From Pseudomonas silvicola (lineage in GTDB: Bacteria > Pseudomonadota > Gammaproteobacteria > Pseudomonadales > Pseudomonadaceae): DNA of 64,000 nt. The translations under genes and the position numbers were made by a program. The DNA is taken from the NCBI RefSeq assembly GCF_026651855.1, contig NZ_CP093280.1:6098501-6162500 (forward strand), in the 5' to 3' direction. The notes under the pieces were generated by a model. The model did no database searches, had not been told where the DNA came from, and saw only the letters and a list, made by a program, of their open reading frames with translations. This document shows, piece by piece, positions 6,482 to 60,324 of this stretch. Numbering within the stretch: position 1 is the first letter of the stretch; each line of letters opens with the position of its first letter.

Positions 6482-8465
6482 GGGGGGTACCTCAAAGGCT
6501 TCAAAGCCTCATTCTACGGGGAGGATCTGGTGGGTGTCTAACGGCATGCAACTGGCAGCCCTCAGCCAATCCCACGCCAGACAAACAAGGCGGTCGAGGC
6601 CATCCCACAGACATAACTGGCCCGAAACAGATGTAGGAGCGAGGGGGGGCGCCTAGCCCTTGCTCGCGAAGCGCCGCGCGGGCGGCGCTCGGCCTCCAGG
6701 GCGCTGGAGAAACTCAATCCATGCGCCTAGAGGCCCTGATGCGGTGCCAAGCCGGAAAAACAAAGCGGTCGAGGCAATCCCACAGACATAACTGGCCCGA
6801 AACAGATGTAGGAGCGAGGGGGGCGCCTAGCCCTTGCTCGCGAAGCGCCGCGCGGGCGGCGCTCGGCCTCCAGGGCGCTGGAGAAACTCAAGCCATGCGC
6901 CTAGAGGCCCTGATGCGGTGCCAAGCCGGAAAAACAAAGCGGTCGAGGCAATCCCACAGACATAACTGGCCCGAAACAGATGTAGGAGCGAGGGGGGCGC
7001 CTAGCCCTTGCTCGCGAAGCGCCGCGCGGGCGGCGCTCGGCCTCCAGGGCGCTGGAGAAACTCAAGCCATGCGCCTAGAGGCCCTGATGCGGTGCCAAGC
7101 CGGAAAAACAAAGCGGTCGAGGCAATCCCACAGACATAACTGGCCCGAAACAGATGTAGGAGCAGAGCTTGCTCGCGAAGCGCCGCGCGGGCGGCGCACG
7201 GTCTCAAGGGCGCCGGAAAAACCCAAGCCATGCACCTAGAGGCCCTGACGCGGTCTCAAGCCGGAAAAACAAGGCGGTCCAGGCAACCCCACAGACATAA
7301 TTGGCCCGAAACAGATGTAGGAGCAGAGCTTGCTCGCGAAGCGCCGCGCGGGCGGCGCGCGGTCTCGAGGGCGCCGGAAAAACCAAGCCATGCACCTAGA
7401 GGCCCTGATGCGATTTCATGACAGGCTCTTAGGGCCCCGCTGGAGATCTCATCATGGCCACCAAGCGCTAGTCGATGGTGTTGTAGCGCCCTCGAGACCG
7501 TGCGCCGCCCGCGCGGCGCTTCGCGAGCAAGCTCTGCTCCTACATCTGTTTCGGGCCAGTTATGCCTGTGCCATTGCCTGGTCCGCCTTGGTTGTTCGCC
7601 TGGAGATTGGGTCGGGGCCTCCATGTGCATGCCTTGGTTTCTCTAGCGCCCTTGAGACCGTGCGCCGCCCGCGCGGCGCTTCGCGAGCAAGCTCTGCTCC
7701 TACATCTGTTTCGGGCCAATTATGTCTGCGCCATCGCCTGGACCGCCTTGTTTGCTTGGCTTGAAACCGTATCAAGGCCGCCAGGTGTATGGCTCAAGGT
7801 TTCCGGCGCCCTTGAGACCGTGCGCCGCCCGCGCGGCGCTTCGCGAGCAAGCTCTGCTCCTACATCTGTTTCGGGCCAGTTATGCCTGTGCCATTGCCTG
7901 GTCCGCCTTGGTTGTTCGCCTTGGGATCGGGTCAGGGCCGCCAGGTGCATGGCTGGATGCTTCTGGCGCCCTTGAGACCGCGCGCCGCCCGCGCGGCGCT
8001 TCCCGGGCAAGCCCGGTCCCACATCTGTTTCGGGCCAGTTATGTCTGGGGGATTGCCTGGACCGCCTTGTTTGTCCGCCTGGAGATTGGGTCAGGGCCTC
8101 CAGGCGAATGCCTTGGTTTCTCCAGCGCCCTCGAGACCGTGCGCCGCCCGCGCGGCGCTTCGCGAGCTTCGCGCGCTCCTACATCTGTTTCGGGCCAGTT
8201 ATGCCTGTGAGATTGCCTGGACCGCCTTGTTTGTCCGCCTGGAGATTGGGTGAGGGCCTCCATGTGCATGTATTGGTTTTTCCGGCGCCCTCAAGACCGT
8301 GCGCCGCCCGCGCGGCGCTTCGCGAGCAAGGGCTCGGCGCCCCCCTCGCTCCCGCAGTCGCCATTGCCAAACCCCAATTCAAACAAGCGTATGTTTTTTC
8401 ATTGACAGTCCCCCGCAAGCCCCATAACCTCCAAGGCACCTTCAACGTACCCGGACGACGCGGAC
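6482..8465. repeat. Mirror-symmetric array of eleven REP-type hairpin units (BIME-like)
   Basis: This ~2-kb gap between divergent genes is built from units of about 160-175 bp. Each holds a GC palindrome (GCGCCGC-GCGG-GCGGCGC) beside TGTAGGAGC and GCTCGCGAAGC. Five cores lie in plus orientation (6671, 6845, 7019, 7180, 7341). Six lie in the opposite orientation (7502, 7662, 7822, 7982, 8141, 8301). The divide is near 7420-7480. The outer units on both sides carry a longer spacer containing a GC-rich insert (GGGGGGCGCCTAGCCC type), while the inner ones are short. The flanking ~100 bp of each unit is also conserved. It is non-coding; the open frames through it are by-products of the repeat. Promoters for sohB and 8466 must lie in or beside it. 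Confidence 0.9.
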
Positions 8466-11819: not shown

Positions 11820-13127
11820 ATGAGCGACTCGAAAAACAGCAACACCCCTGTCGACGCCCAGCGGCGCCGTGTATTGATGGGCATGGGCGCCGCCGGCGTC
11901 GCCCTGGCTGGCGGCGCCCTGAGCTGCCCGGCCATGGCGGCTGCCGAGGCCCAGGTGGCTGAAGCGCCGAAAAGCGACAAGACCCAGGACCGCCACGACT
12001 ACCACGGCGTGCACCAGAGCGGCATCGTCACGCCGCGCCCGGCGGCCGGCATGATGGTGGCCTTCGACGTGCTGGCGGCTGACCGCAAGGATCTGGAGCG
12101 CCTGTTCAAGCTGCTGGACCAGCGCATCAAGTTCCTGATGACCGGCGGCGAAGTGCAGGAAATCGACCCGAAACTGCCACCCGTGGACTCCGGCATCCTC
12201 GGCCCGGTCGTCACCCCGGACAACCTGACCATCACCGTGTCGGTGGGCGCCTCGCTGTTCGACGAGCGTTTCGGCCTGGAACACGCCAAGCCCAAGCACC
12301 TGATCCAGATGGTCGGTTTTCCCAACGACGCCCTGGAGCCAGCCCTGTGCCACGGCGACCTGACGCTGCAGTTCTGCTCCAACACCCCGGACACCAACAT
12401 TCACGCCCTGCGTGACATCGTCAAGAACATGCCGGACCTGCTGCTGGTGCGCTGGAAACAGGAAGGCACCGTGCCGGCCCAGGCGCCGAAGAAGCCCAGC
12501 GAGCCGGCCGAAAGCGCGCGCAACTTCCTTGGTTTCCGCGACGGCTCGGCCAACCCGGACTCCAACGACAACAAGGCCATGGACGCCATCGTCTGGGTGC
12601 AACCGGGCAGCGAAGAGCCGGCCTGGGCCGCCAACGGCAGCTACCAGGCCGTGCGCCTGATCCGCAACTTCGTCGAGCGCTGGGACCGTACCCCCCTGCA
12701 AGAGCAGGAAAGCATCTTCGGCCGCAAGAAGATCACCGGTGCGCCGTTCGATGGTGCCACCGAGCATGACGTACCGGACTACCACAAAGACCCGGAAGGC
12801 AAGCTCACCCGGCTGGACTCGCACATTCGCCTGGCCAACCCGCGCACGCCCGAGTCCCAGGCCAACCTGATCCTGCGCCGCCCGTTCAACTACTCCAATG
12901 GCGTGAACAAGAACGGCCAGCTGGACATGGGCCTGCTGTTTATCTGCTACCAGGCCAACCTGGAGAAAGGTTTCATCACCGTGCAGACCCGCCTTAACGG
13001 CGAGCCGCTGGAGGAGTACCTCAAGCCCATGGGCGGCGGTTATTTCTTCACCCTGCCGGGGGTAAAAAACGACCAGGACTTCATCGGTCGTTCATTGCTG
13101 CAAGCTTCCAACACCAAAAACGCTTAA
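11820..13127 (+). CDS. efeB: Deferrochelatase/DyP-type peroxidase EfeB
   Basis: The 435-residue product has a twin-arginine signal ([18 protein letters not shown]) with the haem enzyme exported to the periplasm. The DyP signature GFRDG is present, as is the SHIRLANPR segment that holds the proximal haem His in this family. EfeB oxidises ferrous iron or releases it from haem for EfeU. The gene is intact. Its last 85 codons (from 12871) form the start of the 1452-bp duplicated segment, so a second copy of this 3' end lies at 14323-14579. Confidence 0.95.
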
Positions 13128-13154
13128 GTCTTTGACAACATCGGGGATCCTTTC

Positions 13155-13982
13155 ATGAAGAAGTCGCCACTCGCTTTGCTGCTGTCCCTTGGTTTGCTGC
13201 ACGCTCCGGTCTCGGCCTTCGCCGCCGACAACTCGGCCCTGGACCTGGTCCAGCCGATCTCCGACTACAAGATCTACGTGACCGAAGAGCTGGACAAGCT
13301 GGGCAGCGAAACCCAGAAGTTCACCGATGCCATCAAGAAGGGCGACCTGGAAACAGCCAAAAAGCTGTATGCCCCGACCCGCGTTCACTATGAAGCCATC
13401 GAGCCGATCGCCGAACTGTTCAGCGACCTGGACGCCTCGATCGACTCACGCGTCGACGACCACGAGAAAGGCGTGACCGCCGAGGACTTCACCGGCTTCC
13501 ACCGCCTGGAATACAGCCTGTACTCGGAAAAGACCACCAAAGGCCTGGAAGCCCTGGCTGACAAGCTGAACAACGACGTGAAGGACCTGCAGACCCGCGT
13601 GGCCGGCCTGACCTTCCCGCCGGAGAAAGTGGTAGGCGGCGCGGCCGCACTGATGGAAGAAGTGGCGGCCACCAAGGTCAGCGGTGAAGAAGACCGTTAC
13701 AGCCACACCGACCTGTATGACTTCCAGGGCAACGTTGACGGCGCGAAGAAAATCTTCGAACTGTTCAAGCCGCAAGTGCAGAAGAAAGACGCGGCCTTCG
13801 TGACCAAGGTTGAAAAGAACTTCGGCACCGTGGACAAGATCCTGGCCAAGTACAAGACCAAGGACGGCGGCTACGAGACCTATGACAAGGTCAAGGACGC
13901 TGACCGCAAGGCCCTCATCGGCCCGGTCAACACCCTGGCAGAAGACCTGTCCACCCTGCGTGGCAAGCTGGGTCTGAACTAA
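13155..13982 (+). CDS. efeM: EfeM-like periplasmic imelysin/M75 protein, copy 1
   Basis: The 275-residue product has a clear signal peptide (~1-24, ending SAFAAD) and a single M75 domain with HxxE at 116-119 (GFHRLEYSLY). It lacks the cupredoxin domain of EfeO and so corresponds to the short EfeO/EfeM type of iron-binding protein. It lies 27 bp after efeB in the same operon. The protein is identical to the copy at 14607-15434. Confidence 0.93.
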   Translation: MKKSPLALLLSLGLLHAPVSAFAADNSALDLVQPISDYKIYVTEELDKLGSETQKFTDAIKKGDLETAKKLYAPTRVHYEAIEPIAELFSDLDASIDSRVDDHEKGVTAEDFTGFHRLEYSLYSEKTTKGLEALADKLNNDVKDLQTRVAGLTFPPEKVVGGAAALMEEVAATKVSGEEDRYSHTDLYDFQGNVDGAKKIFELFKPQVQKKDAAFVTKVEKNFGTVDKILAKYKTKDGGYETYDKVKDADRKALIGPVNTLAEDLSTLRGKLGLN

Positions 13983-13991
13983 GGTTGTGCC

Positions 13992-14020
13992 TGTAGCCGC
14001 TGCCCAGGGCAGCGGCTACA
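13992..14020 (+). terminator. Hairpin after efeM copy 1
   Basis: A perfect 13-bp inverted repeat (TGTAGCCGCTGCC, loop CAG, GGCAGCGGCTACA) lies 10 bp after the efeM stop. It lacks a clear T-run, so it may be a processing or partial termination site, or a solitary REP-like element. It is repeated at 15444-15472. Confidence 0.55.
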
Positions 14021-14144
14021 TCGGCTGTATTGATCGCCCTGCAACACCCCCGCCAATAACACCCCCTCGCACTTGTCCCCTGCCCTGCCGCGCATTAGAT
14101 TGTTCAATGATCTGACGCCTCCAGAATAAGCAAAAGGGATAACC

Positions 14145-14579
14145 ATGGCGCTTACCGACCAATCCACCGCCGTGCGCAGCGGTGAAGAGCTCGATGCCGC
14201 GCGTATCGACCCGTACCTCAAGGCGCACATCCCCGGCCTCACCGGCACGCCAAGCATCAGCCAGTTCCCCGGCGGCGCTTCGAACCTGACCTACCTGGTC
14301 ACCTACCCCGAACAGGAATTCGTCCTGCGCCGCCCGTTCAACTACTCCAATGGCGTGAACAAGAACGGCCAGCTGGACATGGGCCTGCTGTTTATCTGCT
14401 ACCAGGCCAACCTGGAGAAAGGTTTCATCACCGTGCAGACCCGCCTTAACGGCGAGCCGCTGGAGGAGTACCTCAAGCCCATGGGCGGCGGTTATTTCTT
14501 CACCCTGCCGGGGGTAAAAAACGACCAGGACTTCATCGGTCGTTCATTGCTGCAAGCTTCCAACACCAAAAACGCTTAA
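14145..14579 (+). pseudogene. Hybrid ORF: kinase 5' end fused in frame to efeB 3' end
   Basis: The 144-codon frame begins with the first ~61 residues of the phosphotransferase ([10 protein letters not shown]... to FVLRRP). It continues with the last ~83 residues of EfeB ([10 protein letters not shown] onward). The join is at the 14-bp sequence common to both genes, and the frame is kept by chance or necessity. It keeps the kinase gene's own start region, so it may be translated. Neither half holds the catalytic residues of its parent, so I treat it as a by-product of the duplication. Confidence 0.9.
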
Positions 14580-14606
14580 GTCTTTGACAACATCGGGGAT
14601 CCTTTC

Positions 14607-15434
14607 ATGAAGAAGTCGCCACTCGCTTTGCTGCTGTCCCTTGGTTTGCTGCACGCTCCGGTCTCGGCCTTCGCCGCCGACAACTCGGCCCTGGACCTGG
14701 TCCAGCCGATCTCCGACTACAAGATCTACGTGACCGAAGAGCTGGACAAGCTGGGCAGCGAAACCCAGAAGTTCACCGATGCCATCAAGAAGGGCGACCT
14801 GGAAACAGCCAAAAAGCTGTATGCCCCGACCCGCGTTCACTATGAAGCCATCGAGCCGATCGCCGAACTGTTCAGCGACCTGGACGCCTCGATCGACTCA
14901 CGCGTCGACGACCACGAGAAAGGCGTGACCGCCGAGGACTTCACCGGCTTCCACCGCCTGGAATACAGCCTGTACTCGGAAAAGACCACCAAAGGCCTGG
15001 AAGCCCTGGCTGACAAGCTGAACAACGACGTGAAGGACCTGCAGACCCGCGTGGCCGGCCTGACCTTCCCGCCGGAGAAAGTGGTAGGCGGCGCGGCCGC
15101 ACTGATGGAAGAAGTGGCGGCCACCAAGGTCAGCGGTGAAGAAGACCGTTACAGCCACACCGACCTGTATGACTTCCAGGGCAACGTTGACGGCGCGAAG
15201 AAAATCTTCGAACTGTTCAAGCCGCAAGTGCAGAAGAAAGACGCGGCCTTCGTGACCAAGGTTGAAAAGAACTTCGGCACCGTGGACAAGATCCTGGCCA
15301 AGTACAAGACCAAGGACGGCGGCTACGAGACCTATGACAAGGTCAAGGACGCTGACCGCAAGGCCCTCATCGGCCCGGTCAACACCCTGGCAGAAGACCT
15401 GTCCACCCTGCGTGGCAAGCTGGGTCTGAACTAA
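14607..15434 (+). CDS. efeM: EfeM-like periplasmic imelysin/M75 protein, copy 2
   Basis: The protein is identical in all 275 residues to the copy at 13155-13982, with the same upstream 27 bp. It is intact with signal peptide and HxxE motif. Whether it is transcribed from the efe promoter or stopped by the hairpin at 13992 is unknown. It exists only because of the tandem duplication, or because of an assembly error that mimics one. Confidence 0.85.
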   Translation: MKKSPLALLLSLGLLHAPVSAFAADNSALDLVQPISDYKIYVTEELDKLGSETQKFTDAIKKGDLETAKKLYAPTRVHYEAIEPIAELFSDLDASIDSRVDDHEKGVTAEDFTGFHRLEYSLYSEKTTKGLEALADKLNNDVKDLQTRVAGLTFPPEKVVGGAAALMEEVAATKVSGEEDRYSHTDLYDFQGNVDGAKKIFELFKPQVQKKDAAFVTKVEKNFGTVDKILAKYKTKDGGYETYDKVKDADRKALIGPVNTLAEDLSTLRGKLGLN

Positions 15435-15443
15435 GGTTGTGCC

Positions 15444-15472
15444 TGTAGCCGCTGCCCAGGGCAGCGGCTACA
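15444..15472 (+). terminator. Hairpin after efeM copy 2
   Basis: This is the duplicate of the perfect 13-bp inverted repeat at 13992-14020, here placed before the intact kinase gene. Confidence 0.55.
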
Positions 15473-15596
15473 TCGGCTGTATTGATCGCCCTGCAACACC
15501 CCCGCCAATAACACCCCCTCGCACTTGTCCCCTGCCCTGCCGCGCATTAGATTGTTCAATGATCTGACGCCTCCAGAATAAGCAAAAGGGATAACC

Positions 15597-16664
15597 ATGG
15601 CGCTTACCGACCAGTCCACCGCCGTGCGCAGCGGTGAAGAGCTCGATGCCGCGCGTATCGACCCGTACCTCAAGGCGCACATCCCCGGCCTCACCGGCAC
15701 GCCAACCATCAGCCAGTTCCCCGGCGGCGCTTCGAACCTGACCTACCTGGTCACCTACCCCGAACAGGAATTCGTCCTGCGCCGCCCGCCCTTCGGGCAC
15801 AAGGCCAAGTCTGCCCATGACATGGGCCGCGAATACCGCATCCTCAACCAGCTCAACGCCGGGTTCCCCTACTGCCCCAAGGCCTACGCGCACTGCACCG
15901 ACGAATCGGTGATCGGTGCCGAGTTCTACGTGATGGAGCGGGTCAAAGGCATCATCCTGCGCTCGGACATTCCCGCCGAATTGGGCCTCGACCCGCAGAA
16001 GACCCGCGCCCTGTGCCACAACTTCATCGACAAGTTCGCCGACCTGCACCGGGTGGATTACGCCGCCTGCGGCCTGGCCGACCTGGGCAAGCCCGAAGGC
16101 TACGTGGCACGCCAGATCAGTGGCTGGAGCGACCGCTACGACAAGGCCCGCACCCCGGATGCCCCGGCGTGGGACAGCGTCAAGGCATGGCTGGCGGACA
16201 AGCAACCGGCCGACCACCCCAAGCCTGCCATCGTGCACAACGACTACCGCTTCGACAACGTCATCCTCGACGCCCAGGACCCGATGCAGATCATCGGCGT
16301 GCTGGACTGGGAGCTGACTACCCTGGGTGACCCGCTGATGGACCTGGGCAACACCCTGGCCTACTGGATACAGGCCGATGACCCGGCGCCGGTGCAACTG
16401 ATGCGCCGCCAGCCCAGCCACGCACCCGGCATGCTGACACGCCGCGAATTCGTCGACTACTACGCCGAACGGGCCGGCATCCAGGTGGACAACTTCGACT
16501 TCTATTACACCTATGGCCTGTTCCGCCTGGCCGGCATCGTGCAGCAGATCTACTACCGCTTCTTCCACGGCCAGACCCAGGACAAGCGCTTCGCCCAGTT
16601 CATTCACATGAACAAACTGCTGGAACAGATGAGCCTGAACGTCATCAAGCACTCCACCCTGTAA
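15597..16664 (+). CDS. APH-fold phosphotransferase (ACAD10-type acyl-hydroxyl kinase-like)
   Basis: The 355-residue product carries the aminoglycoside-phosphotransferase fold with the catalytic HNDYRFDN loop and the metal-binding DWE (VLDWELTTLGDP). Its length and pattern fit the group related to the kinase domain of ACAD10/11, thought to act on 4-hydroxyacyl-CoA. Specific function here is inferred. An AAAAGGGATAACC ribosome site precedes the ATG. It is followed 10 bp later by the SDR gene, so the two are an operon. Its 5' end is duplicated at 14145. Confidence 0.88.
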   Translation: MALTDQSTAVRSGEELDAARIDPYLKAHIPGLTGTPTISQFPGGASNLTYLVTYPEQEFVLRRPPFGHKAKSAHDMGREYRILNQLNAGFPYCPKAYAHCTDESVIGAEFYVMERVKGIILRSDIPAELGLDPQKTRALCHNFIDKFADLHRVDYAACGLADLGKPEGYVARQISGWSDRYDKARTPDAPAWDSVKAWLADKQPADHPKPAIVHNDYRFDNVILDAQDPMQIIGVLDWELTTLGDPLMDLGNTLAYWIQADDPAPVQLMRRQPSHAPGMLTRREFVDYYAERAGIQVDNFDFYYTYGLFRLAGIVQQIYYRFFHGQTQDKRFAQFIHMNKLLEQMSLNVIKHSTL

Positions 16665-47140: not shown

Positions 47141-48319
47141 ATGCTCGATATCAACCGCCTGCGCGCCGACACCCCGGGCTGCGAACAGCTTGTTCACTTC
47201 AACAACGCCGGGGCCTCGCTGTCCCCGGCCGTGGTCGCCGCGGCCATTGCCCGCCACCAGCAACGGGAAATCCGCCTCGGCGGCTACGAGGCGGCGGATG
47301 CCGCGCAGGCGGAGACCGCGGCGGTGTATGCCGGCGTGGCACGCCTGCTCAATGCCCGAACCGAAGACATCGCCCTGGTGGACAACGCCACCCGCGCCTG
47401 GGACATGCTGTTCTACGCCCTGCCGCTGAAGGCCGGCGATGTGGTGCTGACCTCGGCCAGTGAATACGCCGGCAATTACATCCCGTACCTGCAGCTCAAG
47501 CAGCGGCTGGGCATCCAGATCGAGGTGCTGGCCAACGATGAGCAGGGGCAAGTCTGCCTGGCAGCCCTGCAGGCACGCCTGCAAGGCCCCGGCGTGGCCC
47601 TGGTGTCGCTGCCGATGATCGCCAGCAACGGTGGCGTGGTGCAGCCGGTGCAGGCCATCGGCGCCCTGTGCCGCGCCGCCGGTGTGCTGTTCCTGGTGGA
47701 CGCCTGCCAGGCCGCGGGCCAGGTGCCACTGGATGTCCGTGCCATCGGTTGTCACATGCTGACCGCCACCAGCCGAAAGTACCTGCGCGGGCCGCGTGGG
47801 GTAGGTTTTCTCTATATCGAACAGGCGCTATGCCAACGTCTCGAACCGACGTTCCTGGACCTGCACGCCGCCAGCCTGGTGAGCGCCGACGCCTTCGAGA
47901 TCCGTGCTGACGCGCGGCGCTTTGAAAGCTGGGAGAGCAACCTCGCGGTACGGCTGGGGTTTGGCGCAGCGGTGGACTACGCCCTGGGCGTGGGCGTCGA
48001 CGCCTTGTGGGCGCGGATCCGACACCTGGCGAACTACCTGCGCACCGCGCTGCACACCCTGCCTGGCTACCATTGCCAGGACGTGGGCCGACCGTTGTCG
48101 GGGCTGGTGACTTTCACCAGCGAGCACCACGCCCCGGCCGCCATCCAGCACTACCTGGCCCATTTGCCCCAGCGCATCAACGTCTCGGTATCAGGCGCGG
48201 CGTCGACCTGGCTGGACATGCAACAGCGCGGCCTGGAGAGCGTGGTGCGGGCCTCGGTGCACGCCTACAACACCGAGGCCGAACTCGATAGCCTGGTCGA
48301 TGCCCTGCGCGCCCTGTAA
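47141..48319 (+). CDS. Class V aminotransferase / cysteine-desulfurase-like PLP enzyme
   Basis: The 392-residue fold type I enzyme has FNNAGASLSP at the start, LFLVDACQAAG with the cofactor Asp, and TSRKYLRGPRGVGFLYI with Lys213 as the likely Schiff-base residue. It belongs to the class V (NifS/isopenicillin-N-epimerase-like) group; the substrate is not clear. Bases 47250-47629 of this gene are the source of the 0.37-kb patch found in the yej operon at 53928-54306. The gene here is intact. Confidence 0.9.
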   Translation: MLDINRLRADTPGCEQLVHFNNAGASLSPAVVAAAIARHQQREIRLGGYEAADAAQAETAAVYAGVARLLNARTEDIALVDNATRAWDMLFYALPLKAGDVVLTSASEYAGNYIPYLQLKQRLGIQIEVLANDEQGQVCLAALQARLQGPGVALVSLPMIASNGGVVQPVQAIGALCRAAGVLFLVDACQAAGQVPLDVRAIGCHMLTATSRKYLRGPRGVGFLYIEQALCQRLEPTFLDLHAASLVSADAFEIRADARRFESWESNLAVRLGFGAAVDYALGVGVDALWARIRHLANYLRTALHTLPGYHCQDVGRPLSGLVTFTSEHHAPAAIQHYLAHLPQRINVSVSGAASTWLDMQQRGLESVVRASVHAYNTEAELDSLVDALRAL

Positions 48320-51100: not shown

Positions 51101-52669
51101 TCAAGTGAACCGAGCGCCCAGCAACTCACGGGTATAACGGTGCGCGGGGGCGCTGAAGACCTGCTCGGTCGCGCCGTACTCCACTGCCCTGCCCGCCTGC
51201 AACACCAGTACCTGATGAGCCAGGGCGCGCACCACGGCCAGGTCGTGGCTGATGAACAGGTAGGCCACGCCGTGCTCGTGTTGCAGGCGGCGCAACAGGG
51301 CAATGATCTGTTTCTGCACCGAGCGGTCCAGCGCCGACGTGGGTTCGTCCAGCACGATCAGCCGAGGCTTGAGCACCAGTGCGCGAGCAATGGCAATGCG
51401 CTGGCGCTGCCCACCGGAGAATTCATGGGGGTAGCGGTGGCGTGCCTCAGGGTCCAGGCCCACTTCCCGCAGGGCGTCGATCACCCGTGCCTCGCAGGCC
51501 TGGTCGTCCAGCCGCGAATGCACCTGCAAGCCCTCGGCAATGATCTGTTGCACACTCAGGCGCGGGCTGAGGCTGCCGAACGGGTCCTGGAACACGGCCT
51601 GCAGGTGCTTGCGCCAAGGCCGCATCGCCCGGCTGCCAAGCCCCTGCAATTCGCGGCCTTGAAACACCACGCTGCCTTCGCTGGGAATCAGCCGCAGCAG
51701 GGCCTGGCCCAGGGTCGACTTGCCGGAGCCCGACTCACCGACGATGCCCAGCGTCTGCCCTTGGCGTACCTGGAGGTCAAGGCGCTGCAGCGCCGTGAAC
51801 CGATTCCGGCGCCAAGGCAGCCCGCCACGGCCGAAGGCCACCCGCAACTGCGTCACGCTCAGCAGCACCGGCGCTGCCGGATCGGCCAACTCGGCGGCGG
51901 CAGGTTCGGCGTCCAGCAACTGCCGGGTGTAAGGATGGCGGGGGGCAGTGAATACCTGCTCGCAGGCGCCCTGCTCGACGATCCGGCCATGGCGCATCAC
52001 GGCGACGTGCTGGGCAATGTCGCGGACCAGGTTCAGGTCATGGCTGATCAACAGCAGCGCCATGCCCAGGCGCTGTTGCAGGCTTTTCAGCAGCGCCAGG
52101 ATGCGCCGTTGCACCGTGACGTCGAGGGCGGTGGTCGGCTCATCGGCGATCAACAGTTGCGGCTCGCACGCCAGCGCCATGGCGATCATCACCCGTTGGC
52201 GCTGGCCGCCGGACAACTGGTGGGGGTAACTGCCCAGACGCTGGCGCGGGGTGCCGATGCCCACCAGCCCCAGCAGTTCGACAATTCGCTCGCGGGCTTC
52301 GGCCGGGCCCATGCCACGGTGCAGGCGCAGGGTCTCTGCCAGTTGTTTTTCCACGGTGTGCAGCGGGTTCAGTGAACTCATGGGCTCCTGGAAGATCATC
52401 GTGATGCGGTTGCCCCGCAGCGCCTGCAAGCGCCGGGCACTTGCCCCCAGCAACTCCTCGCCCTGGTAGCGGATGCTGCCTTGGGTGTGGGTAATGGCCT
52501 GGGGCAGCAGCTGCAGAATCGAATGCGCAGTCACCGACTTGCCGGAACCGGACCCGCCCACCAACGCCAGGCACTCACCGGCGCGAATATCCAGGTCCAG
52601 GCCATGGACCACCGGGGTATCGTTAAAGGCCACGCGCACATCGCGCAGGGTGATCAGGCAATCAGTCAT
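51101..52669 (-). CDS. yejF: Peptide ABC transporter, fused double ATPase YejF
   Basis: The 522-residue protein has two ABC domains in tandem. Each has a Walker A (GGSGSGKS and GESGSGKST), a signature (LSGGQRQR and FSGGQRQR) and a Walker B (LLIADEPT and LIVLDEPT). This matches YejF of the YejABEF importer for oligopeptides and microcin C. ATG 52669 follows the yejE stop directly; an upstream in-frame start at 52696 overlaps yejE. Confidence 0.94.
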   Translation of the reverse strand: MTDCLITLRDVRVAFNDTPVVHGLDLDIRAGECLALVGGSGSGKSVTAHSILQLLPQAITHTQGSIRYQGEELLGASARRLQALRGNRITMIFQEPMSSLNPLHTVEKQLAETLRLHRGMGPAEARERIVELLGLVGIGTPRQRLGSYPHQLSGGQRQRVMIAMALACEPQLLIADEPTTALDVTVQRRILALLKSLQQRLGMALLLISHDLNLVRDIAQHVAVMRHGRIVEQGACEQVFTAPRHPYTRQLLDAEPAAAELADPAAPVLLSVTQLRVAFGRGGLPWRRNRFTALQRLDLQVRQGQTLGIVGESGSGKSTLGQALLRLIPSEGSVVFQGRELQGLGSRAMRPWRKHLQAVFQDPFGSLSPRLSVQQIIAEGLQVHSRLDDQACEARVIDALREVGLDPEARHRYPHEFSGGQRQRIAIARALVLKPRLIVLDEPTSALDRSVQKQIIALLRRLQHEHGVAYLFISHDLAVVRALAHQVLVLQAGRAVEYGATEQVFSAPAHRYTRELLGARFT

Positions 52670-52670
52670 C

Positions 52671-53693
52671 TCAAGCACTCGGGTCGAAGGCATCACGGCA
52701 GGCTTCGCCGATGAATACCAGCAAGGAAAGAATCAACGCCAGGGCACAGAACGCCGTCAACCCCAGCCAGGGCGCCTGCAGATTATTCTTGCCCTGGGCC
52801 ACCAGTTCCCCCAGCGAAGCACTGCCCGCCGGCATGCCGAAGCCGAGGAAGTCCAGCGCCGACAGCGTGGCGATGGCCCCGGTGACAATGAACGGCAGCC
52901 AGGTCAGCGTGGCGTTGAACGCGTTGGGCAGGATATGCCGGGTCATCAGGCGCAGGTCGCCGACGCCCAACGCGCGGGCGGCCCGCACATATTCCAGGTT
53001 GCGCCCGCGCAGGAACTCGGCGCGCACCACGTCCACCAGCGCCAGCCAGGTGAACAACGCCATGATGCCCAGCAGCCACCAGAAATCAGGCTCAACGAAA
53101 CCGGACAGGATGATCAGCAGGTACAGCACCGGCAAGCCCGACCAGATCTCCAGCAGCCGCTGGCCGAGCAGGTCCACCCAGCCGCCGTAATAGCCCTGCA
53201 GGGCCCCGACGGTGACACCGATCACGGCACTGATGGCGGTGAGTGCCAAGGCAAACAGCAGCGACACCCGCGCCCCATAGATCACTCGCGCCAACACATC
53301 GCGCGCCTGGTCGTCGGTGCCCAGCCAGTTCTGACCCGACGGCGGGCTGGGCGCCGGCGTGGTGAGGTCGTAATTCACCGTCTCGGCACTGAACGGCACC
53401 GGCGCGAACAGCATCCAGCCACCCTGCCCTTCGACCAGTTGGCGGGTGGACGCAGCGCGGTAATCGGGCTGGAATGGCAGTTGCCCGCCAAAGTCCTGTT
53501 CGGTGTAGCGCACCAGCGCCGGGAAGTAATAGCTGCCTTTCCACGCCAGCAACAGTGGCTTGTCGTTGGCCAACCCTTCGGCGCCCAGGCACAGGCCGAG
53601 CAACACCACGAACAGCCATAGCGACCAACAGCCGCGGCGGTGCTGGCGAAAGCGCTGCCAGCGGCGCCGGGCCACGGGAGAAAGCACATACAT
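52671..53693 (-). CDS. yejE: Peptide ABC transporter permease YejE
   Basis: The 340-residue permease has an N-terminal helix (WSLWLFVVLLGLCLG) and a periplasmic region. Five further helices follow, with the EAA-type loop (EFLRGRNLEYVRAARALG) that docks the ATPase. ATG 53693 has AAGGAG 7 nt upstream. The gene is intact. Its first ~50 codons and ribosome site are repeated at 54304-54460 as part of the rearrangement upstream. Confidence 0.94.
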   Translation of the reverse strand: MYVLSPVARRRWQRFRQHRRGCWSLWLFVVLLGLCLGAEGLANDKPLLLAWKGSYYFPALVRYTEQDFGGQLPFQPDYRAASTRQLVEGQGGWMLFAPVPFSAETVNYDLTTPAPSPPSGQNWLGTDDQARDVLARVIYGARVSLLFALALTAISAVIGVTVGALQGYYGGWVDLLGQRLLEIWSGLPVLYLLIILSGFVEPDFWWLLGIMALFTWLALVDVVRAEFLRGRNLEYVRAARALGVGDLRLMTRHILPNAFNATLTWLPFIVTGAIATLSALDFLGFGMPAGSASLGELVAQGKNNLQAPWLGLTAFCALALILSLLVFIGEACRDAFDPSA

Positions 53694-53942
53694 GGTCAGC
53701 TCCTTGCGGAAAAATCGATACGCGGGTCGACCAGGCGATAGCACAGGTCGCCCACCAACTTGATCACCAGCCCCGCGAGGGTGAACACCAGCAGCGAGCC
53801 GAACACCACCGGATAGTCCCGGGCCACGGCCGCCTCGTAGCTCAGGCGGCCCAGGCCATCGAGGGAAAAGATCACCTCGACCAGCAATGAACCGCCGAAC
53901 AGCACGTTGATCAGGGCATTGGGCAACCCCGCCACCAGCAAC
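53544..53942. repeat. Downstream copy of the duplicated yejB/yejE junction segment
   Basis: The ~399-bp segment matches 54297-54695 at a constant offset of 753 bp. It covers the yejE 5' end (intact gene) and the yejB 3' end (fragment). It ends at the 15-bp sequence CCCGCCACCAGCAAC (53928-53942), which also occurs in the aminotransferase gene at 47250-47264. Confidence 0.93.
53696..53942 (-). pseudogene. yejB 3' fragment (last ~81 codons)
   Basis: This repeats the end of intact yejB (54449-54695) exactly in the translated part: LLVAGLPNALINVLFGGS to the stop. Upstream of 53942 it runs into the aminotransferase-derived patch in the wrong strand and frame, so it cannot make a permease. It keeps the intact spacing to yejE. 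Confidence 0.9.
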
Positions 53943-54306
53943 GGAAATCCGCCTCGGCGGCTATGAGGCGGCGGATGCCGCGCAGGCGGAGACCGCGGCG
54001 GTGTATGCCGGCGTGGCACGCCTGCTCAATGCCCGAACCGAAGACATCGCCCTGGTGGACAACGCCACCCGCGCCTGGGACATGCTGTTCTACGCCCTGC
54101 CGCTGAAGGCCGGCGATGTGGTGCTGACCTCGGCCAGTGAATACGCCGGCAATTACATCCCGTACCTGCAGCTCAAGCAGCGGCTGGGCATCCAGATCGA
54201 GGTGCTGGCCAACGATGAGCAGGGGCAAGTCTGCCTGGCAGCCCTGCAGGCACGCCTGCAAGGCGCCGGCGTGGGCGTGGTGTCGCTGCGGATGATCGCC
54301 AGCAAC
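53931..54306 (+). pseudogene. Class V aminotransferase internal fragment inserted in the yej operon
   Basis: About 376 bp match 47253-47629 with the middle apparently identical. Differences cluster at the ends. On the left there is a 1-bp deletion just after 53942 and a C-to-T change near 53973. On the right there are about four substitutions between ~54265 and 54290. It has no start or stop of its own gene and lies antisense to the yej operon. No transposase, inverted ends or target duplication is seen. Confidence 0.9.
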
Positions 54307-54446
54307 AGTGGCTTGTCGTTGGCCAACCCTTCGGCGCCCAGGCACAGGCCGAGCAACACCACGAACAGCCATAGCGACCAACAGCCGCGGCGGTGCTGGC
54401 GAAAGCGCTGCCAGCGGCGCCGGGCCACGGGAGAAAGCACATACAT
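54153..54446 (-). pseudogene. yejE 5' fragment (first ~50 codons) with out-of-frame tail
   Basis: It repeats the yejE start (MYVLSPVARRRW through NDKPLLLA) including its ribosome site. It then runs into the antisense aminotransferase patch and ends after about 47 unrelated codons. If translated, it would give a ~97-residue peptide with one membrane helix. Confidence 0.88.
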
Positions 54447-54695
54447 GGTCAGCTCCTTGCGGAAAAATCGATACGCGGGTCGACCAGGCGATAGCACAGG
54501 TCGCCCACCAACTTGATCACCAGCCCCGCGAGGGTGAACACCAGCAGCGAGCCGAACACCACCGGATAGTCCCGGGCCACGGCCGCCTCGTAGCTCAGGC
54601 GGCCCAGGCCATCGAGGGAAAAGATCACCTCGACCAGCAATGAACCGCCGAACAGCACGTTGATCAGGGCATTGGGCAACCCCGCCACCAGCAAC
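54297..54695. repeat. Upstream copy of the duplicated yejB/yejE junction segment
   Basis: Matches 53544-53942 at an offset of 753 bp. It begins at the 10-bp CGCCAGCAAC (54297-54306), shared with the aminotransferase gene at 47620-47629 and with yejE at 53544-53553. Confidence 0.93.
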
Positions 54696-55507
54696 AGCAT
54701 GGCGTTGCGAAACACATGGCGGTACAGCACCTGGCGCTCGCTGAGCCCCTTGGCGCGCGCTGTGACCACGTACAGGCGGCTGATTTCACTGAGCACGCTG
54801 TTCTTGGTCAACAGGGTCAGGGTGGCGAAACCGCCCACCACCAGTGCCGTGACCGGCAGCACCAGATGCCAGAAATAGTCCACGACCTTGGCCAACGGAT
54901 TCAGCTGGCTGAAGTTGTCCGACACCAGCCCGCGCACCGGGAACCAGTCCAGGGCAGTACCGCCGCCAAACAGCACGATCAACAGCAGCGCGAACAGAAA
55001 GGCCGGCATGGCGTAGCCGATGGCAATCAGCGCACTGCTCCAGCCGTCGAACGCCGTGCCGTTGCGCACCGCCTTGCCGATGCCGAGCGGAATCGACACC
55101 AGGTAGGTGATCAGGGTCGCCCAAAGGCCCAGGGACAGGGTGACCGGCAACTTGGACACCATCAGGTCAGTGACCTTGGCGCCGCGAAAAAAGCTGGTGC
55201 CCAGGTCCAGGTGCGCGTAGTTGTCCAGCATCAGCCACAGGCGCTGCAACGGCGGTTTGTCGAAGCCGTACTGGCGCTCGATGTCGGCGACCAGCGCCGG
55301 GTCCAGCCCCCGGGTAGCGCGGGCGTCGCTGCCCACCCGCTCCGTGGCCGCACCGCCGGCGGCTACCGCGCCAAGGCCCTGAAGACGGGCGATGGCCTGC
55401 TCCACCGGGCCACCGGGGGCCGCTTGCACAATCGCGAAATTGACCAGCAAAATGCACAGCAGGGTCGGCCCCATCAGCAGCAGGCGCCGCAGACTATAGG
55501 CCCACAT
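54449..55507 (-). CDS. yejB: Peptide ABC transporter permease YejB
   Basis: The 352-residue permease has an N-terminal helix (LLLMGPTLLCILLVNFAIV), a periplasmic segment, and five more helices with the EAA-type loop (RLYVVTARAKGLSERQVLYRHVFRNAML). It overlaps the yejA stop by 14 bp. The gene is intact. Downstream, the operon continues through the rearranged 0.75-kb stretch before reaching intact yejE. Confidence 0.94.
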   Translation of the reverse strand: MWAYSLRRLLLMGPTLLCILLVNFAIVQAAPGGPVEQAIARLQGLGAVAAGGAATERVGSDARATRGLDPALVADIERQYGFDKPPLQRLWLMLDNYAHLDLGTSFFRGAKVTDLMVSKLPVTLSLGLWATLITYLVSIPLGIGKAVRNGTAFDGWSSALIAIGYAMPAFLFALLLIVLFGGGTALDWFPVRGLVSDNFSQLNPLAKVVDYFWHLVLPVTALVVGGFATLTLLTKNSVLSEISRLYVVTARAKGLSERQVLYRHVFRNAMLLLVAGLPNALINVLFGGSLLVEVIFSLDGLGRLSYEAAVARDYPVVFGSLLVFTLAGLVIKLVGDLCYRLVDPRIDFSARS

Positions 55508-57398
55508 GACGCTCGCCCTCCTCGGCTCGCTGCATCTGCACGCTGGTGAGCGCCGTCGGGCTTATCTGCCACCAGGTATCCAGCCCGGGCTCGTTGTCGG
55601 CCTGCAGGCGCGGGCGGCCGTAGCGGTTCCACCACACCGACGACACACCGGGCGGGTAGTAGTTGGGAATCCAGTAGTAGCCCCACTGCAGCACGCGGTC
55701 AAGGGCATGGGCGTAATGCACCATGCGCCCGCGGCTGTCGGCATCGACCAGGCCTGCGATCAGGCCGTCCACGGCCGGGTCGCGCAGCACCGCGTAGTTG
55801 TTGGAGCCCGGATCAGCCGCGCTCTCGGAGCCATAGTAGTTGTACAGCTCGCGTCCAGGCGTGGGCGAAACCGGGTACGCCGCCACGATCATGTCGTAGT
55901 CCCGGGCCCGCACGCGGTTGGTGTACTGCGCCGAATCAACCTGGCGAATGCTGAAGCCGACACCAATCTGCGCCAGGTTGCGCTTGAACGGCAGCAACAG
56001 GCGCTCGAAACCGCGCTGTACGTTGAGGAAGGTAAAGCTCAGCGGCTGGCCCGCGGCGTTCACCAACTGGTCACCGCGTGGCCGCCAGCCGGCGCTTTCC
56101 AGCAACCGCAAGGCCTGCAACTGCTGTGCGCGGACAATGCCACTGCCATCGGTTTTCGACGGCTCGAAGGCCTGGGTGAATACCTCGTCGGGGATCTTGC
56201 CGCGCCAGGGTTCGAGGATGTTCAGTTCCTCGGTATCAGGCAGGCCTGTGGCCGCCAGGTCGCCATGGGAGAAATAGCTGCGCTGGCGGATGTACAGGCT
56301 GCGCATCATCTGCCGGTTGCTCCACTCGAAGTCCCACAGCAGGGCGATAGCCTGGCGCACGCGGCGGTCCTGGAACATCGGTTTGCTCAAGTTGAACACA
56401 AAGCCCTGGGCCTCCTGGGCGGCGCCGGGCGCCAGGTGCTCGCGTACCAGGCGGCCATCGTCCAGTGCCGCACCGTCGTAACCCAGGGTATAGCTCGTGG
56501 CCGAGAACTCGCGGTTGTAGTCCAAGGCCCCCCCTTTCAGCACCTGCCGCGCTACCTCGGTATCGCCGAAAAACTCCACGCTCAGCTCGTCGAAGTTGTA
56601 CAGGCCACGGCTGACCGGCAGGTCGCGGCCCCACCAGTCCTTGTTGCGCTCGAAATGAATACTGCGGCCCGGGTCGACGCGGCTCACCCGGTAAGGCCCG
56701 CTGCCCAGCGGCGGCTCGAAACCACCGCCGCTGGCAAAGTCGCGGCTTTTCCACCAGTGCTCGGGCAGCACCGGCAAGCCAGCGATATCCAGGGGCAGGT
56801 TGCGGTTGCCCGTGTTCTTGAAGGTAAAGCGTACCTGGGTGGGTGACTCCACCCGCACCTGATCGACGTCGGCAAACTGCTGCCGGTATTTGAGGCTGCC
56901 CTGGGTCATGAACAGCGTGAAGGTGTAGCGCACGTCTTCGGCGGTGATGGGCTGGCCATCGGCGAAACGCGCCTTGTCGTTGAGCACCACGCGCAGCCAG
57001 CTACGGTCCGGCGCCAACTCGAACTGCCGGGCTACCAGGCCGTAGACCGTGTAGGGCTCGTCCTTGGAGCGGTACCCCAAGGGCGAATACAGCCAACTGT
57101 CCACCTGGGTCACACCGGTACCCCTGTCCACGTAAGGCACGATGTGGTCAAACGCGCCGTCTTCCGTGGACGAGCGTCGCAGGCTGCCGCCCTTGGGTGC
57201 CTGGGGGTTGACGTAATCGAAGTGCTCGAAACCGTCGGCGTAGCGCGGTGCTTCGCCGTAGACCGTGAGGTACCCCTGCGGGGCGCCCCAGGCCGCGGAC
57301 GCCAGGCACAACGTGGTCAGCAGCACACCGAAACCGTGCCTGCCTGACAGGTTGTGCAACCAGAGCCGTTTTTTTATAGGGCAAGGCTTAGAATACAT
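55494..57398 (-). CDS. yejA: Peptide ABC transporter substrate-binding protein YejA
   Basis: The ~634-residue exported family 5 binding protein begins with a basic stretch and a hydrophobic signal (~25-43, VLLTTLCLASAAWG), then YLTVYGEAPRYADGFEHFDYVNPQAPKGG, the usual YejA opening. In E. coli and Salmonella YejA delivers peptides and microcin C to YejBEF. ATG 57398 is chosen to give the signal peptide at a normal distance; ATG 57425 is an alternative. It lies 46 bp after the TonB receptor on the same strand, suggesting one transcription unit. Confidence 0.9.
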   Translation of the reverse strand: MYSKPCPIKKRLWLHNLSGRHGFGVLLTTLCLASAAWGAPQGYLTVYGEAPRYADGFEHFDYVNPQAPKGGSLRRSSTEDGAFDHIVPYVDRGTGVTQVDSWLYSPLGYRSKDEPYTVYGLVARQFELAPDRSWLRVVLNDKARFADGQPITAEDVRYTFTLFMTQGSLKYRQQFADVDQVRVESPTQVRFTFKNTGNRNLPLDIAGLPVLPEHWWKSRDFASGGGFEPPLGSGPYRVSRVDPGRSIHFERNKDWWGRDLPVSRGLYNFDELSVEFFGDTEVARQVLKGGALDYNREFSATSYTLGYDGAALDDGRLVREHLAPGAAQEAQGFVFNLSKPMFQDRRVRQAIALLWDFEWSNRQMMRSLYIRQRSYFSHGDLAATGLPDTEELNILEPWRGKIPDEVFTQAFEPSKTDGSGIVRAQQLQALRLLESAGWRPRGDQLVNAAGQPLSFTFLNVQRGFERLLLPFKRNLAQIGVGFSIRQVDSAQYTNRVRARDYDMIVAAYPVSPTPGRELYNYYGSESAADPGSNNYAVLRDPAVDGLIAGLVDADSRGRMVHYAHALDRVLQWGYYWIPNYYPPGVSSVWWNRYGRPRLQADNEPGLDTWWQISPTALTSVQMQRAEEGERHVGL

Positions 57399-57444
57399 TT
57401 TCGCAAACCCGCCATTGGCGATCATCAAAGTGCATAACGCCGCC

Positions 57445-60324
57445 TCAGAAGTTGTAGGCAATCTTGGTGAACAGCACTCGACCGTAGGGGTCGGCGTATT
57501 TGGGGTCGTAGCCACTCTGGAAGGTGTAGGTCTGGTTGCTGAAGGGCGGTTCGCGGTCGAACAGGTTCTGCACCCCGGCGGTGAAGTCGACGCTCTTGCG
57601 CCAGTGGTAGGTGCCGGCCAGATCCCACACGTTGTAGGAAGCGACGCTGTGGTGGGTGTCAGGGTCGGAGTCGTGGTAGCCGCTGGTGAAGCGGTTGACC
57701 AGGCTGGCGCCATACGGGCCCTGGTTCCAGCTCAGGGTCAGGCTCTGGCGCCAGCGGGCAACGGCGCCGGCCGAGGAGAAGTCGCCACCCCTGAAATCAC
57801 CGACCTTATCGATGAATGGGCCACCAATCTGTTCCTGGTAGTCATAGCGGGTCACGTATGTGCCCTGCAGGCCCAGGCCGAATTGACCGTAGGGGGAATC
57901 GGGGAATCGGTAGTCCAGGGACACGTCGATGCCGCTGGTCTTGACCTTGCCCAGGTTGGCCAGGCCCGTGATGATGTGGTCGATCGAGCCGTCGGCCTTG
58001 CGCACGATGCGGTCGGCGAACGCATCGGGGTTGTCGAAGATGGCCGACTCGGGAAATTCGGCGATCTGGTTGGCGATCTTGATCCACCAGAAGTCCAGGC
58101 CCACGGACAGGTCGCGCACCGGCTGGTAGACGAAGCCGAAAGTGACGTTGCGCGCCGTCTCTGGGCTCAGCTGGGTGTTGCCACCGGTGCGGCTGAAGAA
58201 CTGCTGGGCGCAGTCGCGGTTGGCGATGCCGCCATTGCTGGGGTTGCCGCCGGCGCACAGGCGCGGGTCGTTGTAATTGGCGTTGGTGTAAGTGGTGTAG
58301 TTGGGGTTGTACAGCTCATACAACGATGGGGCACGGAAGCCTTCGCTGTAGGCGCCACGCAGCACCAGCTCCTTGAACGGCTGGAAGCGGAACGAGTATT
58401 TGGGGTTGGTGGTACTGCCGAAGTCACTGTACTTGTCGTGGCGCACGGCGGCGCTCAGTTCCAGGCTGTCGAGCACCGGCACGTTCAGTTCGGCGTATTC
58501 GGCCTGCACCGAGCGGTCGCCGGACACGGCGGCGTTGGGGTCTACCCCCAGGCTCTGCACCTGGGCGGCGAACTGTTCATAATCCTGGTGGAACTCTTCC
58601 TTGCGGTATTCGCCGCCGATGGCCAGGGCTGCGGGGCCAGCGCCAAACCAGTCGCCGATCTCGCGGCTGGCGCGCCCGTCAACGGCTTTCACCCGTCCCA
58701 GGGCAGTGCGGTAATCACCGTCCACGGCATTGGCGGCCAGATAGGCGGCGCCTGCCGCGCTCTGTGGGCCGAAGGGGTTGAGGGTGCCGTCGGCAATGCC
58801 GGTGCTCACGGCTGTGTCATTGACGTAGCCACTGTTGATGCTGTTGACCACTTTGTTCTGGTTGTAGGAGGCGCCTACGTTGTAATCCCAGCCGGCAGCG
58901 TTGCCCTCGAACGTCAGCAACAAGCGCTGGCTGGTGTTGTCAGCGCTCTGGCGGCGCGGGCCCACGTCGCTTTCACGCCAGTTGACGTCCACTGGCTGGG
59001 TGGGGTCCAGGGCGAAGCCGGTCGGGCCGGGGGTAATGCCGTTGCCGGGATAGTACGCAGTGCCGGGGTTCACTTGCAGGCCGCTCAACGGCGCGGCGCC
59101 TACCTGGGTGCGGCTCTGGTTCTTGGCGAAGAAGTATTCCAGGCTCACGGTCTGGTCATCGGCCAGCTTGCCACTGGCCTTCGTGAACAGCGAAGTCTTT
59201 TCCGATTCGGGAATCAGGTCCAGGGAACTCCACAGGCTTTCGCGGCAAATACCATTGCGCAGAATCAGCCCTGGCCCCTTGCAGCCGCTGGCGGCCAAGG
59301 GGTTGGTGGCATTGCTGCCCTGGCTCCAGTTGGCCGGCGAGGTGGTACCGCTGGTGGAGTCCAGGCCACGGTTGGGCTGGTAGTTGTAGGTGTAGCTTCG
59401 GTCCTTGGCGGCCAGGCTGTCCTGCTTGTCGAAGTTGGCCACGGCAAATACGTTGAAACGATCCTGGTCCAAGTCGCCGAAGCCGTAGCTGGCGCTCAGG
59501 TCATGCGTGTCGCCGTCGCCGGCGTGGGTCGGGCTGGTGAGGCCGCCACTGATCTGGCCGCCGATCACGCTTTTCCTGGTGATGAAGTTGATCACCCCAC
59601 CGATGGCATCGGTGCCGTACAGGGCCGAAGCGCCATCTCGCAGAATTTCCACACGGTCCAGGGCGGCAAAGGGAATGGTATTGAGGTCGACGCCAGTGCC
59701 ACTGATGGCGTTGTTGCTCAGGCGTCTGCCGTTGAGCAGCACCAGGGTCTTGTTCGGGCCGATGCCGCGCAAGTCCGCGAACGAAGCTCCGCCGCTGTCG
59801 GAGCCCACGGCACGGCTGGAATTGACCGAGGACTGGTTGCTGGCGATGCGGCTGACCAACTGCTCGACGCTGGTCACACCCTGTTCCTTGAGCTGCTCGA
59901 CGTGCAGGATGGTGACGGGCACCGCGGTCTCCGCGTCCACCCGGCGAATGGCACTGCCGGTCACCTCCACCCGCTCCAGCTGGGTGGTGGGGGGCGCGCT
60001 GACGGCCGCCGCAGGCGTGGCGCTGATATCGGGGCTGATGACCACGCCGGTGCTGCTGGTCTCGCTGTGCAGGCCGCTGCCCTGCAGGGCAGCGCGCAGC
60101 GCCTGGTCAACGCTCAAGTCGCCCTTGACCGGGGGGGCCATCTGGCCTTGCACCAGTCGCTGATCGAAAGCGATGGTCTGGCCGGTCTGTCTGGAAATCT
60201 GCAGCAGGGTCGAATCCAATGGGCCGGCCGGCACGTCGAACGTCACGGCCAGGGCCCATTGGGGGGCCAGGTTCAGCCCCAGCAACAGGCCGGCACTGAT
60301 TCGGGTCAAGGTCATTGGTTTCAC
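57445..60324 (-). CDS. TonB-dependent receptor with N-terminal STN signalling domain
   Basis: The 959-residue outer-membrane receptor has a signal peptide (~1-26), an STN domain (~27-100: VTFDVPAGPLDSTLLQISRQ), a plug (~115-250: LRGIGPNKTLVLLNGRR, VEILRDGASALYGTDAIGGVINFIT) and a barrel ending in KIAYNF. STN domains contact FecR-type sensors. Its plug style resembles receptors for peptides or sugars more than classical siderophore receptors, which is a pattern judgement. It starts at GTG 60324 or ATG 60315. It is probably controlled by the adjacent fecIR and co-transcribed with yejABEF. Confidence 0.92.
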   Translation of the reverse strand: MKPMTLTRISAGLLLGLNLAPQWALAVTFDVPAGPLDSTLLQISRQTGQTIAFDQRLVQGQMAPPVKGDLSVDQALRAALQGSGLHSETSSTGVVISPDISATPAAAVSAPPTTQLERVEVTGSAIRRVDAETAVPVTILHVEQLKEQGVTSVEQLVSRIASNQSSVNSSRAVGSDSGGASFADLRGIGPNKTLVLLNGRRLSNNAISGTGVDLNTIPFAALDRVEILRDGASALYGTDAIGGVINFITRKSVIGGQISGGLTSPTHAGDGDTHDLSASYGFGDLDQDRFNVFAVANFDKQDSLAAKDRSYTYNYQPNRGLDSTSGTTSPANWSQGSNATNPLAASGCKGPGLILRNGICRESLWSSLDLIPESEKTSLFTKASGKLADDQTVSLEYFFAKNQSRTQVGAAPLSGLQVNPGTAYYPGNGITPGPTGFALDPTQPVDVNWRESDVGPRRQSADNTSQRLLLTFEGNAAGWDYNVGASYNQNKVVNSINSGYVNDTAVSTGIADGTLNPFGPQSAAGAAYLAANAVDGDYRTALGRVKAVDGRASREIGDWFGAGPAALAIGGEYRKEEFHQDYEQFAAQVQSLGVDPNAAVSGDRSVQAEYAELNVPVLDSLELSAAVRHDKYSDFGSTTNPKYSFRFQPFKELVLRGAYSEGFRAPSLYELYNPNYTTYTNANYNDPRLCAGGNPSNGGIANRDCAQQFFSRTGGNTQLSPETARNVTFGFVYQPVRDLSVGLDFWWIKIANQIAEFPESAIFDNPDAFADRIVRKADGSIDHIITGLANLGKVKTSGIDVSLDYRFPDSPYGQFGLGLQGTYVTRYDYQEQIGGPFIDKVGDFRGGDFSSAGAVARWRQSLTLSWNQGPYGASLVNRFTSGYHDSDPDTHHSVASYNVWDLAGTYHWRKSVDFTAGVQNLFDREPPFSNQTYTFQSGYDPKYADPYGRVLFTKIAYNF

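Follow-up and report, generated by a model that had tools for sequence, protein, structure and literature searches.

An insert that lengthens the spacing between yejB and yejE in Pseudomonas silvicola by 753 bp is made up of yej and aminotransferase sequence only, with both of its ends inside pre-existing repeats. On balance, we read it as the net product of two direct-orientation joins at short direct repeats, likely a tandem duplication followed by a deletion. As a single event this scar is of a known kind; it is more interesting as a member of a large set of duplications in the same chromosome.

The window (the whole stretch of 64,000 nucleotides that was analysed, to which all positions without a contig prefix refer) carries the yej operon on the minus strand, in the order yejA-like, yejB, yejE, yejF-like. 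Both yejB (54449..55507, minus strand, 352 aa; NCBIfam NF011712, 474.7 bits) and yejE (52671..53693, minus strand, 340 aa; NF011596, 481.3 bits) match their models nearly end to end and above cut-off, so that the survival of both genes, as proposed in an earlier sequence-only reading of this DNA, is borne out. The same operon includes a yejF-like ATPase gene (51101..52696, minus strand), scoring below the equivalog cut-off, and a yejA-like solute-binding protein gene with an ORF of 739 aa (55494..57713, minus strand). The latter matched only SBP_bac_5 in Pfam; its name is assigned from its position, and its true start probably lies further in. To the left, on the plus strand, lies an intact gene for a class-V aminotransferase (47141..48319; best NCBIfam model EgtE, below cut-off), which contains the donor segment of the insert.

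Self-comparison of the window revealed an exact direct repeat of 399 bp at an offset of 753 bp (53544–53942 and 54297–54695), each copy comprising the 5' end of yejE and the 3' end of yejB. In copy 1 (53544..53942) the yejE part belongs to the intact yejE and the yejB part is a truncated copy, while in copy 2 (54297..54695) the yejB part belongs to the intact yejB and the yejE part is truncated. Between them lies a templated patch (53943..54296, plus strand), in the orientation of the donor and antisense to the operon, whose full match (53928–54312) aligns to 47250..47635 on the plus strand, within the aminotransferase gene, at 98.2% identity (6 mismatches and 1 gap across 386 columns, with 300 bp of the match uninterrupted). 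The donor lies to the left of the patch at an offset of 6,677–6,678 bp, and what now separates yejB from yejE is a yejE start in truncated form, the patch, and a yejB end, likewise truncated. The first join falls in a 15-bp sequence, CCCGCCACCAGCAAC, present on the plus strand at 53928..53942 and also at 47250–47264 and 54681–54695; it includes CCACCAGC, which on the opposite strand reads as the Chi site of E. coli. The second join falls in a 10-bp sequence, CGCCAGCAAC, at 54297..54306 (plus strand), and also at 47620–47629 and 53544–53553. These results confirm, to the base, what had been noticed from the sequence alone: a segment of ~400 bp repeated at a 753-bp offset, a piece of an aminotransferase gene 6.7 kb away lying between the copies, and joins in 15-bp and 10-bp sequences shared by donor and target. 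The intervening 0.37 kb had been described as a piece of 47250–47629; its source is correct, but it is an imperfect copy, with 5 substitutions and 1 missing G.

The changes in the patch are not evenly spread. One G is missing at the first join, a single silent C>T lies 22 bp past the lost G, and four C>G changes fall within 26 bp near the second join, with a further G/A difference just beyond it. All four C>G changes alter amino acids in the donor frame, making 4 of the 5 substitutions non-synonymous, and all five lie in the outer 65 of ~365 positions (P ~2e-4, for bounds set after seeing the data). A third template for the clustered C>G changes was sought, and no long match was present in the sampled sequence. 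At these four sites the donor residues are shared by Pseudomonas sp. M47T1, one of the sampled relatives (4/4), and by congener L122 (3/4), L18 and L123 being outside the alignment; by this comparison, the allele of the donor seems to be the ancestral one. These changes would be accounted for by error-prone DNA synthesis close to the joins or by patch ends left unpolished, but not by allele exchange. The combination of changed ends with a perfect interior of 300 bp could itself represent unpolished sequence.

The insert is probably functionless in itself; a simple scan of 53400–54800 for promoter-like or terminator-like sites returned none. Among four named relatives of the aminotransferase, L022, L023, and L025 showed no yej gene in the DNA covered (10-kb flanks; 6 kb in total for L025), and L024 (10-kb flanks) gave distant ATPase matches only and no yej operon. 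Among the congener matches listed, yejB and the aminotransferase were hit separately, with only short matches elsewhere.

We propose that the 15-bp repeat in the aminotransferase gene would have mispaired with its copy in yejB, giving a tandem duplication of 6,678 bp, and that a deletion of 5,924 bp at the 10-bp repeat would then have stripped most of the second unit, leaving yej, a 354-bp aminotransferase piece, and yej again. When these two steps were scripted from the empty site, the product was 754 bp longer than that site; set against this product, the window shows 5 mismatches and lacks 1 base, with identical sequence downstream. The sequence anatomy, both repeats, and a class of similar events are observed directly; the order of the steps, RecA-independent annealing, and correct assembly at yej are inferred.

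The sequence-only reading had instead attributed the footprint to two template switches, and its account of templated copying with joins at short shared sequences stands, but a duplication followed by a deletion yields the same product. In the single-event version, akin to FoSTeS/MMBIR, the nascent strand would have left yejB at the 15-bp repeat, copied ~354 bp, and returned at the 10-bp repeat upstream of its departure point, a course of events that we regard as possible though somewhat unlikely. It predicts identical junctions, and the templated insert has microhomology at both joins (15 bp and 10 bp). Mutagenic synthesis close to the switches would place changes where the patch has them, towards its ends; at cysNC (see below), three joins make up a complex direct event; and junctions of 3–30 bp of microhomology are described for template switching in lac amplification in E. 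coli (PMC3161906). However, inverted pieces would also be expected, and no inverted pairs of at least 200 bp at 95% identity occurred in the chromosomal stretches, the stretch of contig C2, or the two congeners compared (contig C3, which carries its own inverted 251-bp pairs, was left out). Single-join tandem duplications, moreover, dominate the chromosome, and structure alone cannot tell one event from the two-step route. Our preference is for two steps; it is modest and goes back to how common single-step tandem duplications are in this chromosome and to the direct orientation of all sampled pieces. Transposition or integration of a mobile element, which the sequence-only reading had rightly set aside, is highly improbable: a piece from a foreign position between direct repeats is all that recalls it, whereas the insert is part of a gene resident in this genome and has both ends in pre-existing repeats, and a 399-bp repeat far exceeds a target-site duplication. 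According to the ORF list, the insert has no transposase frame of its own, and the hallmarks of transposition (a transposase, terminal repeats, and a short target duplication) do not fit a 399-bp repeat around a piece of a resident gene. A search for the 354-bp unit elsewhere in the genome gave no match beyond the window copy and the donor.

Eight stretches of the same chromosome, totalling 2,062,500 bp and including the window, were self-compared for simple head-to-tail copies of at least 97% identity. This yielded 13 simple arrays with units of 563–2,106 bp, one of them a triplication: six in stretch A, two in B (one being the triplication, of 1,079 bp), one in D, and four in H. The other four stretches gave none; three of them (E, F, and G, together 600 of the 2,062.5 kb) were also free of decoded rearrangements, and the fourth, C, held two spaced duplications (C1:2104578 and C1:2099629) outside the decoded set. 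The window itself contains a second duplication (12871..15788, plus strand), a tandem of 1,452 bp with 14 bp of junction homology, TCCTGCGCCGCCCG, and 2 substitutions, a context that the sequence-only reading had missed, as it had the arrays beyond the window. A further tandem array of 1,863 bp, including sbcD, was met in a separate gene search (C1 near 6671900–6674530; L185 1115–3771). By the same limits, no arrays were detected in 200 kb from each of two congeners, in contig C2 (200 kb compared), or in E. coli K-12 (50 kb compared); the rate of this chromosome predicts ~2.5 simple arrays for 400 kb of congener DNA, which makes this control weak when taken alone. The lineage seems to make or keep short-homology tandem duplications unusually often.

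The arrays consist of direct head-to-tail copies with short homology at their junctions, as in short-junction tandem duplication. Exact homology was measured at 11 of the 13 junctions (14, 2, 3, 7, 14, 1, 13, 9, 14, 13, and 13 bp), amounting to 7–14 bp in eight and 1–3 bp in three; the junctions of 2, 3, and 1 bp sit in imperfect overlaps of 16, 14, and 6 bp, respectively. The remaining two arrays, the triplication and one other, have BLAST overlaps of 15 and 17 bp. Random junctions (n = 20,000, spaced 500–2,200 bp) had a mean of 0.76 matching bases, and only 2 of them reached at least 13 bp, which excludes chance. Homology of this kind is a mark of annealing at short repeats, and alone it fails to separate cells from computer programs.

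Besides yej, two more decoded rearrangements carry templated pieces. In hrpA (C1:7057356–7060162; L163 17356–L164 162), a 653-bp piece of the 3' part of the gene lies between two 244-bp copies in an A–B–A arrangement that interrupts the frame, with donor and patch in direct orientation, as at yej. The cysD–cysNC rearrangement (C1:2036866–2040625; L102 16866–L103 625) has three joins, which fall in exact repeats of 15, 16, and 15 bp, two of them at GGCAAGAGCACCCTG within the P-loop codons for GKSTL; its outcome is a cysN-containing frame of 981 aa and a separate frame of 192 aa that fuses the cysN start to the kinase part. In prfB (release factor 2 by NCBIfam; C1:7127537–7129483; L167 7537–9483), an internal tandem duplication of 967 bp is joined at the codons for IKDL, and both copies presumably keep the apparent +1 frameshift site. 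Judged from the sequence, the copies might give two release factors read as one chain, or the second might be made from an inner start. Together with prfB, whose 967 bp would be in frame via the +1 frameshift site, four other within-gene duplications (909, 732, 942, and 777 bp) keep the frame. We considered frame-keeping as proof of selection and rejected it: among comparable same-gene repeat pairs (13–19 bp, spaced 400–2,500 bp), 213 of 224 are in frame by composition anyway.

Unexpectedly, almost all differences between copies outside yej are silent. Of the 26 interior differences in six arrays and in the patch of hrpA, 24 were synonymous, against a fraction of ~0.29 expected for random substitutions; the hrpA patch has seven differences from its donor, all silent in the hrpA frame. 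Adding the sbcD array (5/5 in the 794 bp of overlap covered) brings the count to 29 of 31 across seven arrays and the hrpA patch, truncated copies included. Differences within 17 bp of the left end of a match, or within 3 bp of its right end, are left out of this count, and the frames behind the silent-site calls come from a gene caller that is a crude codon-usage script. Seven of the 13 arrays have no interior differences, and the 1,079-bp triplication holds three different versions. Neither read error nor neutral decay should produce such a silent bias, and decay after duplication does not fit it, since many of the copies are truncated. By their pattern, the differences look like alleles once under selection in other cells, which would mean either that DNA of relatives entered one copy or that strains were mixed in the assembly.

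The former possibility, in which DNA taken up from close relatives was integrated through homology at one side and joined through short homology at the other, so that tandem copies would be alleles of different strains, appears to us doubtful as an account of these arrays. In its favour are the 29 of 31 synonymous differences, found also in truncated copies, the three versions in the triplication, and a comEC match above cut-off, natural competence being putative here; tandem-duplication merodiploids arise by transformation in pneumococcus (PMC3784515). Against it, interior differences are lacking in 7 of the 13 arrays, the changes in the yej patch are not allele-like (4 of 5 alter an amino acid in the donor frame), and later ordinary recombination with relatives could also bring alleles into existing copies. 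Its extension to the whole chromosome is equally tentative: there would be dozens of 'micro-merodiploid' arrays, from sub-gene size to a few genes, with copies in many of them being alleles of different strains, made by homology at one end and 10–17 bp at the other and kept long enough for deletions to reshape them into patches like that at yej ('dozens' extrapolates from 13 arrays in 2.06 Mb to the 7.6-Mb contig). The other possibility is an assembly artefact, in which chimeric or mixed-strain sequence was joined at short overlaps and the 753 bp existed in no cell. The contamination estimate of the genome (8.04, versus 0–3 in 58 congeners) points the same way as the excess of duplications; contig C3 (84,880 bp) consists of one 42,440-bp sequence present twice, exactly and head to tail, either as a dimeric plasmid or through doubling in the assembly; the differences between copies elsewhere look allelic; the changes in the yej patch cluster at its ends; and junction homologies of 13–17 bp are close to assembler k-mer size. 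Nevertheless, the assembly has three contigs, no N occurred in the 462.5-kb stretch counted, and coding density is normal (0.74–0.90 in the eight chromosomal stretches versus 0.84–0.85 in two congeners), so the bases look well polished. Unlike raw long-read error, the interior differences of the 13 arrays are substitutions only, with indels confined to the joins, and three junctions have only 1–3 bp of exact overlap, which overlap-merging programs should reject. Moreover, recA, mutS, recB, comEC, recJ, exonuclease I, and mutL each gave one match over cut-off, indicating no general doubling, and strain variation fails to explain the seven arrays in which the copies have no interior difference. 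We consider an artefact unlikely, and keep to duplication followed by deletion as the favoured reading of the yej scar.

A lost repair gene was sought as the cause, and none was missing among those searched. Scores over the family cut-offs were obtained for recA, recB, recJ, exonuclease I, sbcD, mutS, mutL, and comEC; sbcC scored below its cut-off, but it lies within an open frame of 1,223 aa downstream of sbcD. As all of these were found, the search identified no cause for the excess of duplications. With RecA present, tandem repeats of 1 kb should tend to be lost, and the persistence of the arrays despite recA counts against the favoured explanation.

Short-junction tandem duplications that arise by illegitimate recombination at short direct repeats are known in E. 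coli and Salmonella, where they are rare and mostly seen under selection. Counts of small tandem duplications usually come from laboratory selections, and such duplications are regarded as short-lived. In E. coli mutation-accumulation lines, verified tandem duplications numbered 0 in 67 wild-type lines and 1 in 37 mutS lines (PMC10292909), and in starving E. coli amplification proceeds by template switching at microhomology (PMC3161906). The events described here resemble the duplications of E. coli and Salmonella, and template-switch amplification in E. coli (PMC3161906), in their direct tandem copies, junctions of a few to tens of bp, and complex forms with extra pieces; unlike the E. coli and Salmonella cases, many are present in one chromosome, and selection is not known. 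With MMBIR/FoSTeS they share a templated insert between target copies, microhomology at both joins, and changes near the ends of the patch, but the sampled events are in direct orientation only and a duplication–deletion route explains the same sequence. The duplications made by transformation in pneumococcus are ~100–900 kb long, with one small one of 3,276 bp, and are unstable (PMC3784515). Tandem copies that are potentially different alleles are common to those merodiploids and to the present arrays; in contrast to those cases, the repeats here are ~0.4–2 kb and competence is putative. The pairing of one homologous with one illegitimate join likewise recalls homology-facilitated illegitimate recombination (PMC3240628). 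A literature search confined to titles and the openings of abstracts, mostly of non-subscription articles, returned no report of a chromosome so rich in arrays of this kind.

Where a chromosome retains many duplications, some of them with silent differences, the way in which they form, persist, and turn into patches in nature could be tested directly. If the arrays are an artefact, they mark a failure mode in a genome that scores 99.99% for completeness. If the exchange reading is true, small duplications would have a standing source in gene exchange and would not stem from replication slippage alone, and the same would hold for new gene fusions such as the tandem prfB and the split cysN/cysC.

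Several kinds of repeat had been dropped before the arrays were counted. These were short-period arrays (43, 106, 114, 132, 160–175, 332, and 380 bp) and other pairs below 97% identity, an adhesin repeat at C1:4087557 (94.6%), all of contig C3, and two pairs in stretch E lying 119 kb apart (99.6% and 97.2%, with one interior indel each), which were counted as ordinary repeats. At 6538–8331 in the window, long inverted repeats connect two adjoining tandem arrays, whose periods are ~174 and ~160 bp, and arrays resembling these occur at C1:6192075–6193693. A perfect 43-bp tandem array of ~31 copies lies at C1:1332891–1334237 (L082 12891–14237).
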